Assembly: GCA_030523715.1 (NCBI GenBank)
Contig: JAUNHY010000004.1
Coordinates: forward strand, 1 to 64,000
Length of the DNA: 64,000 bases
Direction of reading: 5' to 3'
Source of the DNA: Candidatus Saccharimonadota bacterium
GTDB lineage: Bacteria > Patescibacteriota > Saccharimonadia > Saccharimonadales > Saccharimonadaceae
A program made the translations under genes and the position numbers. The notes beneath the pieces were generated by a model. That model did not search any database, had not been told where the DNA came from, and saw only the letters and a program-made list of their open reading frames with translations. Shown in pieces: positions 2,550 through 41,163 of the stretch. Numbering within the stretch: the stretch's first letter is position 1; every line of letters starts with the position of its first letter.

Positions 2550-2626
2550 GGGCGGTTAGCTCAGTTGGCTAGAGCGCGTCTTTGACGTAGACGAGGTCAT
2601 AGGTTCGAATCCTATACCGCCCACCA
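2550..2626 (+). tRNA. tRNA-Val(GAC)
   Basis: Acceptor GGGCGGT/ACCGCCC, anticodon arm CGTCT-TTGACGT-AGACG (anticodon GAC), T-arm ATAGG-TTCGAAT-CCTAT, and encoded CCA. Confidence 0.95.
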
Positions 2627-14123: not shown

Positions 14124-14199
14124 GGTCACGTCGTCTAGTGGTTAGGACTCCAGGTTTTCATCCTGGCAATCGTGGGTTCGATTCCCACCGTGATCACCA
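14124..14199 (+). tRNA. tRNA-Glu(TTC)
   Basis: Acceptor GGTCACG/CGTGATC, anticodon arm CCAGG-TTTTCAT-CCTGG (anticodon TTC), T-arm GTGGG-TTCGATT-CCCAC, and encoded CCA. Confidence 0.95.
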
Positions 14200-14306
14200 T
14201 ATTTGCTATTAAAACCGCCTATTTCGGCGGTTTTTTGTTCTCGCTCGTCCATTAGACGCGCTTCAAACAAAGAAACCGCCAATCTAGACGCTTTTAATAG
14301 CAAATA
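14200..14306 (+). other. Structured element after tRNA-Glu, copy A
   Basis: Directly after the CCA: a 15-bp perfect outer inverted repeat (14200-14214 with 14292-14306), inside it the tRNA terminator (AACCGCC/GGCGGTT then TTTTTT, about 14213-14236), then CTCGCTCG and a hairpin GCTCGTC-CATTA-GACGCGC (14243-14261) with one internal T/C mismatch. The same architecture occurs after the other tRNA-Glu at 41058-41163, with compensating changes in the hairpin. Function unknown. Confidence 0.7.
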
Positions 14307-40980: not shown

Positions 40981-41057
40981 GGTCTCGTCGTCTAGTGGTC
41001 CAGGACGTCTGGTTCTCATCCAGAAAATCGAGGGTTCGACTCCCTCCGAGATCACCA
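40981..41057 (+). tRNA. tRNA-Glu(CTC)
   Basis: Acceptor GGTCTCG/CGAGATC, anticodon arm TCTGG-TTCTCAT-CCAGA (anticodon CTC), T-arm GAGGG-TTCGACT-CCCTC, and encoded CCA. Confidence 0.95.
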
Positions 41058-41163
41058 CATTTTAGCCAAAATTGCCTATTTAGGCATTTTTTGTTGCTCG
41101 CTCGGTAACAGACCGCGCTTCGCATCAAGAAAATACCCAACTAGGCAATTTTCTTCTAAAATG
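41058..41163 (+). other. Structured element after tRNA-Glu, copy B
   Basis: Outer repeat CATTTTAG/CTAAAATG (41058-41065 with 41156-41163), inner AAAATTGCCTA/TAGGCAATTTT (41068-41078 with 41142-41152), terminator TGCCTA-TT-TAGGCA plus TTTTTT (41073-41092), and the hairpin GCTCGGT-AACAG-ACCGCGC (41100-41118). Compared with copy A (14200-14306) the hairpin keeps its pairing although the paired bases differ. Confidence 0.7.

Follow-up and report, generated by a model that had tools for sequence, protein, structure and literature searches.

A family of palindromic DNA units behind tRNA and tmRNA genes of Saccharimonadaceae that may disperse among RNA-gene 3′ ends

Several tRNA genes and a tmRNA gene in one genus of Saccharimonadaceae are followed by members of a family of palindromes of ~105 bp, which are best explained as non-coding DNA units that disperse among the 3′ ends of such genes and carry a terminator of their own; the probability of this explanation is put at about one half. 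Two copies, A and B, are present in the analysed stretch of 64,000 nucleotides of a Candidatus Saccharimonadota bacterium (contig JAUNHY010000004.1; hereafter, the window), where they lie behind two tRNA-Glu genes (Table 1). The apex core of the element and four non-paired positions in its stem are conserved; elsewhere the stem varies in sequence, but its complementarity is maintained.

An initial annotation of the window had described the same architecture 3′ of the CCA of tRNA-Glu(TTC) and tRNA-Glu(CTC), and both copies were found where it had placed them, with the apical hairpins as written, the joint change of TC/GA to GT/AC between them, one T/C mismatch and a loop of five bases retained, and outer arms that pair in each copy. 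The arms, terminator and hairpin that it listed are all present; they are not, however, separate items, since the folds and the covariance model (CM) show one full-length palindrome. Each copy is imperfectly palindromic over ~105 bp, its first base standing directly 3′ of CCA, and the general apex of the element is CTCGCTCG-nn-5 nt-nn-CGCGCTTC. The left half of copies A and B is an ordinary tRNA trailer with a terminator (~15 nt, AAAA, GCC-loop-GGC, TTTTTTGTT), a layout also seen 3′ of element-free tRNAs of the source genome, and the right half repeats the left one imperfectly, in inverted orientation. As single strands, the entire copies each fold into one hairpin, with -43.4 kcal/mol (plus) and -58.6 kcal/mol (minus) for copy A and -36.9 and -46.3 kcal/mol, respectively, for copy B. 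Because the element is nearly self-complementary, it matches the model (R1) on both strands, copy A with 110.7 bits (+) and 57.8 bits (-) and copy B with 103.7 bits (+) and 39.7 bits (-). The short motif CTCGCTCG by itself is not over-represented in the window.

Table 1. Positions in the window of the two palindromes, their parts and the neighbouring RNA genes
Feature	Coordinates	Strand	Basis or remark
tRNA-Val(GAC), element-free, plain terminator (empty site)	2550..2626	+	occupied in ten relatives examined
tRNA-Glu(TTC), host of copy A	14124..14199	+	ARAGORN; Rfam RF00005
Copy A, entire palindromic element, 107 bp	14200..14306	+	CM R1; full-length fold
Copy A, outer left arm TATTTGCTATTAAAA	14200..14214	+	perfect pairing with 14292-14306
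Copy A, intrinsic tRNA terminator within left arm	14211..14238	+	stem 14211-14234, T-run after
Copy A, apex with conserved core CTCGCTCG-TC-CATTA-GA-CGCGCTTC	14240..14264	+	sequence, apex pattern
Copy A, right half: conserved AAGAAA, CC, A, CT; outer arm 14292-14306	14265..14306	+	
tRNA-Glu(CTC), host of copy B	40981..41057	+	ARAGORN
Copy B, entire palindromic element, 106 bp	41058..41163	+	CM R1
Copy B, intrinsic terminator within left arm	41073..41092	+	stem 41073-41086, T-run after
Copy B, conserved core CTCGCTCG-GT-AACAG-AC-CGCGCTTC	41097..41121	+	sequence, apex pattern
Copy B, right half; outer arm CTAAAATG pairing with CATTTTAG at 41058-41065	41122..41163	+	

The apex pattern occurs far above chance: it gave 14 matches in 101 related genomes, against one for the reversed pattern in the same set. 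These matches fall in 11 genomes, all of the source genus, and one of them (L015), situated within a coding sequence, was set aside as a chance match. The covariance model, built from 11 copies whose consensus fold has 36 pairs (19 with changes on both sides), detects the element in 41 of 45 genomes of the genus, with up to ~8 copies in each. Outside the genus, strong matches were obtained in one sister genus of the family (G196, G212, G219), and the rest of the family sample gave only two weak ones, in two more genera. The E-values of the model come from a short calibration and are rough. The initial annotation had proposed such a search of the source genome and its relatives, and had named a lack of homologues behind tRNAs, or unpaired changes in the hairpin, as grounds against the element; the search returned many homologues behind tRNA genes, with compensating changes and with the pairing kept. 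The description as a tRNA-Glu feature proved too narrow, as three further copies of the source genome stand behind tRNA-Ser(gga), tRNA-Arg(tct) and tRNA-Phe.

The position of the element is constrained to a high degree. By a count from the table of copies, ~77 of 87 examined start at most a few bases from a tRNA or tmRNA 3′ end on the same strand, and three more adjoin a tRNA-Leu 3′ end that is present a second time, the tRNA-Leu itself being 60-187 nt distant (G041, G020, G036); here and below, element locations and fossil positions come from pattern matching and reading of the sequence. Fourteen kinds of tRNA serve as hosts, nearly always in the orientation of the RNA gene; those of the source genus are Arg(gcg, cct, tct), Leu(gag, taa), Val(gac), Glu(ttc, ctc), Thr(cgt), Ser(cga, gga), Phe, Ile and Gln, with tmRNA used in G021. 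In genus g2, Leu(taa), Gly(tcc) and Ser(gct) are also occupied, and Arg(gcg) probably carries the element likewise. All five copies of the source genome are behind tRNAs, yet only ~5 of its 40 tRNAs are occupied. The next long open reading frame, considered by ORF length only, is on the same strand as the element in 51 cases and on the opposite strand in 23, so there is no convergent enrichment, and a role as a bidirectional terminator between convergent genes was rejected.

Three copies follow a 6S-like structured region in the neighbourhood of RNase P. At L330, L300 and L296, a CCGAGCG...CGCTCGG-TTTTTT region lies ~130 nt upstream of the element, between protease-like and nudix-like genes; it resembles 6S RNA, is without an Rfam match, and is followed by the palindrome after its T-run.

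The two arms have changed together to a large extent. Among 77 distinct copies, 95.2% of 2755 pair cells are paired, compared with 40-49% when the partner is slid by 1-3 columns, and 28 of the 36 pairs have changed on both sides. Cells changed on both sides number 630, against 187 in shuffles, a comparison in which some lean is expected from an alignment fitted to the model, though not of the size observed. Pairing in a plus-strand RNA should tolerate G.U but not A.C. The stem of the element contains 60 G.T and 59 A.C mismatches (G.T share 0.37-0.62, bootstrap over genomes), whereas the tRNAs of two carrier genomes, read at fixed acceptor and T-stem positions, have 60 G.U and 2 A.C; the Fisher test of the two ratios gives p about 1e-11, ignoring relatedness. 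Thus, the pairing appears to be kept in DNA, not as RNA, and the ratio of 60:59 speaks equally against an RNA from the minus strand. Of the three readings offered in the initial annotation, a DNA structure and a small mobile palindrome are supported, and the readthrough RNA is disfavoured by these counts. The element thereby provides a quantitative case of textbook covariation without RNA structure, which bears on the calling of structured-RNA candidates, and the G.T to A.C ratio distinguishes pairing at the DNA level from pairing at the RNA level.

The non-paired positions are nearly invariant: T.C at the lower of the internal loops (78 of 84 copies), T.C in the core (83 of 84) and T.G opposite the T-run (76 of 81), with a fourth site near the last, where C.A is the commonest state. 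As a consequence of these non-pairs, the minus strand folds better than the plus strand, which holds for 82 of 84 copies with DNA parameters. Continuous re-copying from arm to arm would erase these non-pairs, so that some form of selection must maintain them.

Much of the distribution reflects vertical descent at the locus, as for 44 of 84 copies the nearest one among those of other genomes is at the same tRNA (9.4 when shuffled). Similarity between different loci is also seen: in G035 and G036, the copies behind Arg(cct) and Val(gac) share 95-96% identity, outer arms included, and the Leu(taa) and Gly(tcc) copies of G219 are nearly alike. Sites in different states were found as well. Behind tRNA-Arg(gcg), there may be a plain terminator (G002, G013, G025 and the outgroups), the left half only (the source genome and G008), a full hairpin, or a hairpin followed by core-plus-right-half units spaced 57-71 nt. 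Such fossil right halves match hairpins now present in other genomes, as the second unit in G024 does with the hairpin of G006, and in G037 and G014 the fossil unit begins inside a T-run that belonged to another, older left half. Behind Val(gac), a right half of one hairpin type persists after a hairpin of another type in G005 and G021, and in G035 and G036 the hairpin precedes the remainder of a different tRNA-end unit. The pattern that recurs is a new hairpin beside CCA, with the old left half lost and the old right half remaining. Fresh fold-back copying of the left half to make each right half was rejected, being contradicted by the conserved mismatches and by the foreign T-run and core in the fossils. 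No clean case of an otherwise identical genome pair with and without the element was found, and no target-site duplication is obvious in the sequences read, where there was no clean empty-site pair to compare.

In G042 (L306 2600-4280, minus orientation), ~1.9 kb with two orphan ORFs separates a newer from an older hairpin behind tRNA-Arg(gcg). A Pfam search of the ORFs between these hairpins gave nothing above the cut-off, and only the downstream ABC ATPase was matched.

If the palindromes do disperse, a unit would be copied whole onto a tRNA end, where it would supply its own terminator, so that the insertion should do little harm, and it would replace the left half of any older copy. The pairing of the arms may be kept in DNA because the folded strand, of which the minus one is the more stable, is recognised in copying; alternatively, template switching during replication may keep correcting the palindrome. 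Through the conserved mismatches, each strand would acquire an identity of its own. Against dispersal, the exchange between loci might be no more than ordinary recombination of the sequences flanking tRNAs, and the copy number is low, modest for a mobile repeat.

In a possible, though doubtful, explanation, nothing is mobile: a tRNA terminator would once have undergone inverted duplication, and quasi-palindrome correction through template switching in replication would since have kept it complementary; gene conversion would exchange terminators from one tRNA locus to another, and unequal recombination at the core would produce the tandem units. Template switching in replication can change both arms at once, as published for RNA hairpins (PMC8794818), and several properties of the element agree with it. 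The left half is an ordinary terminator, sites with the left half only exist, tandem units stand 57-71 nt apart, the equal G.T and A.C mismatches and the rarity of intermediates fit templated correction, and in the closest copy pairs double-sided changes (7) nearly equal one-sided ones (9). Against this, copying would erase the four conserved mismatches, which are nearly invariant, the apex core shared at unrelated tRNAs is left unaccounted for, and the fossils in G037 and G014 carry the core and the T-run of a different, older hairpin and no duplicate of the present left half. Template switching probably contributes. A more specific mechanism, rated unlikely, is a folded-strand insertion system for tRNA 3′ ends, in which the hairpin would be recognised single-stranded by a recombinase (perhaps the one tyrosine recombinase that these genomes have) and new hairpins would always be added at CCA, pushing older ones outward as core-plus-right-half units; were this true, the region behind a tRNA would be an ordered record of past insertions.

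Two other explanations are weaker still. That the palindromes are scars of larger integrative elements (phage, ICE) using tRNA 3′ ends as attachment sites, with the palindrome beside the attachment site, is improbable: tRNA 3′ ends are classic integration sites, a second tRNA-Leu 3′ end precedes the element in three genomes, and two hairpins flank the 1.9 kb of displaced sequence in G042, but ordinary copies are without a duplicated tRNA end downstream, there is a single tyrosine recombinase per genome, mostly distant from the copies, IMG/VR, phage and plasmid sequences gave no match, and no larger intact element was seen. A structured RNA, whether produced by terminator readthrough or acting in tRNA 3′ processing or terminator-antiterminator control, is more improbable again, even though it would suit the fixed orientation, the constant co-transcription with a tRNA or tmRNA, the strong covariation and the ability of the left arm to form pairs inside the terminator or, alternatively, with the right arm. 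The lack of preference for G.U over A.C, the better fold of the strand that is not transcribed, the small share of tRNAs carrying the element, the orthologous tRNAs without it and the lack of an Rfam match all count against such an RNA.

No mobility gene linked to the element was found when reverse transcriptases, Cas1, Y1 transposases and serine recombinases were surveyed in 45 genomes. Reverse transcription was rejected, as RVT_1 is present in only 7 of them and is missing from the copy-rich G035 and G036; insertion at tRNA ends by a casposon or Cas1 was rejected with Cas1 in only one genome, and a RAYT with the Y1 transposase (PF01797) in 4, the source genome not among them. Large serine recombinases occur in 17 of the 45. 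A tyrosine recombinase, one per genome, is present in 39 and mostly lies far from the copies; it is a candidate enzyme only. It is ~1-2 kb from the tRNA-Arg(cct) copy in G009 (C8), G035 (C2), G036 (C4) and G022 (C8), which may be synteny.

The element could not be matched to any known family of small dispersing elements. It resembles REP/REPIN sequences (RAYT, Y1) as a short non-coding palindrome forming DNA hairpins, intergenic, with several copies per genome and with vertical inheritance plus dispersal. It differs in that 41 of 45 genomes have no Y1 transposase and in that its few copies are tied to tRNA 3′ ends; nor does it show two inverted REP singlets with conserved ends and a variable spacer, its apex core being conserved and its outer arms free. 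MITEs, RUP, Correia and enterobacterial RU elements are likewise tiny non-autonomous inverted-repeat units with discrete ends; in MITEs, however, terminal inverted repeats do not differ between copies, whereas here they are complementary within a copy only, and a single target class is used. The element is therefore set among small palindromic repeats, and not as a REPIN or MITE, because both fail on the defining features tested. In integron attC sites, structure is kept while the stem sequence varies, unpaired positions set strand polarity, and one strand folds better. The more stable minus strand and the conserved T.C, T.C and T.G non-pairs recall these sites, which is a resemblance only: there is no integrase-cassette organisation, no cassette genes lie between units, the units are at tRNA ends, and the tyrosine recombinase is as a rule not beside the copies.

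Intrinsic tRNA terminators are represented by the left half of the element, but termination does not need its right half, core and mismatches, all of which are situated past the point where it occurs. The rtT repeats of E. coli tyrT (RF00391) likewise follow a tRNA gene, but each of their units has a copied tRNA 3′ end at its start; the present element has none there. An uptake-sequence-like repeat was rejected, since the short motif is not over-represented and there are about five copies per genome. Rfam matched only tRNAs in the window, a local scan giving generic hairpin matches below gathering; stricter apex patterns had no match in viral sequences (IMG/VR), phages and plasmids gave none of note, and a contig scan and a first viral scan with the apex pattern yielded, among the matches listed, only GC-rich chance ones. 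No paper on such elements was found in the open-access literature. The family would constitute dispersing DNA palindromes directed to only one kind of address, the tRNA/tmRNA 3′ end, and equipped with a terminator that spares the gene; its fossil arrays allow the turnover at the tRNA ends of ultra-small bacteria to be followed in the sequence.

Other structured units were observed behind tRNAs. One family comprises L442 and L479 (G035), ~1-360 nt behind tRNA-Ser(cga) and tRNA-Ser(gga), and L410 of the source genome, behind tRNA-Lys(ctt). Its layout consists of an own terminator, a T-stem-like 5′ strand, the conserved domain GGTTCG.CCAA..CCCGG...CGACGGCG..TTGTTTATATCC and a tRNA 3′-end copy, and in G035 two or three such units, each of roughly 120-135 bp, stand in tandem. 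Another family, without an Rfam match, includes L440, L446, L454, L433 and L480 (G035) and L295 (G036) and is found behind Gly, Val(tac), Ala(cgc) and Leu(gag) tRNAs. Its conserved part is GTAGGAGCCGAGAGAAAA...CCGAGGCGACGCCC, and several of its units end in a copy of the host tRNA 3′ end.
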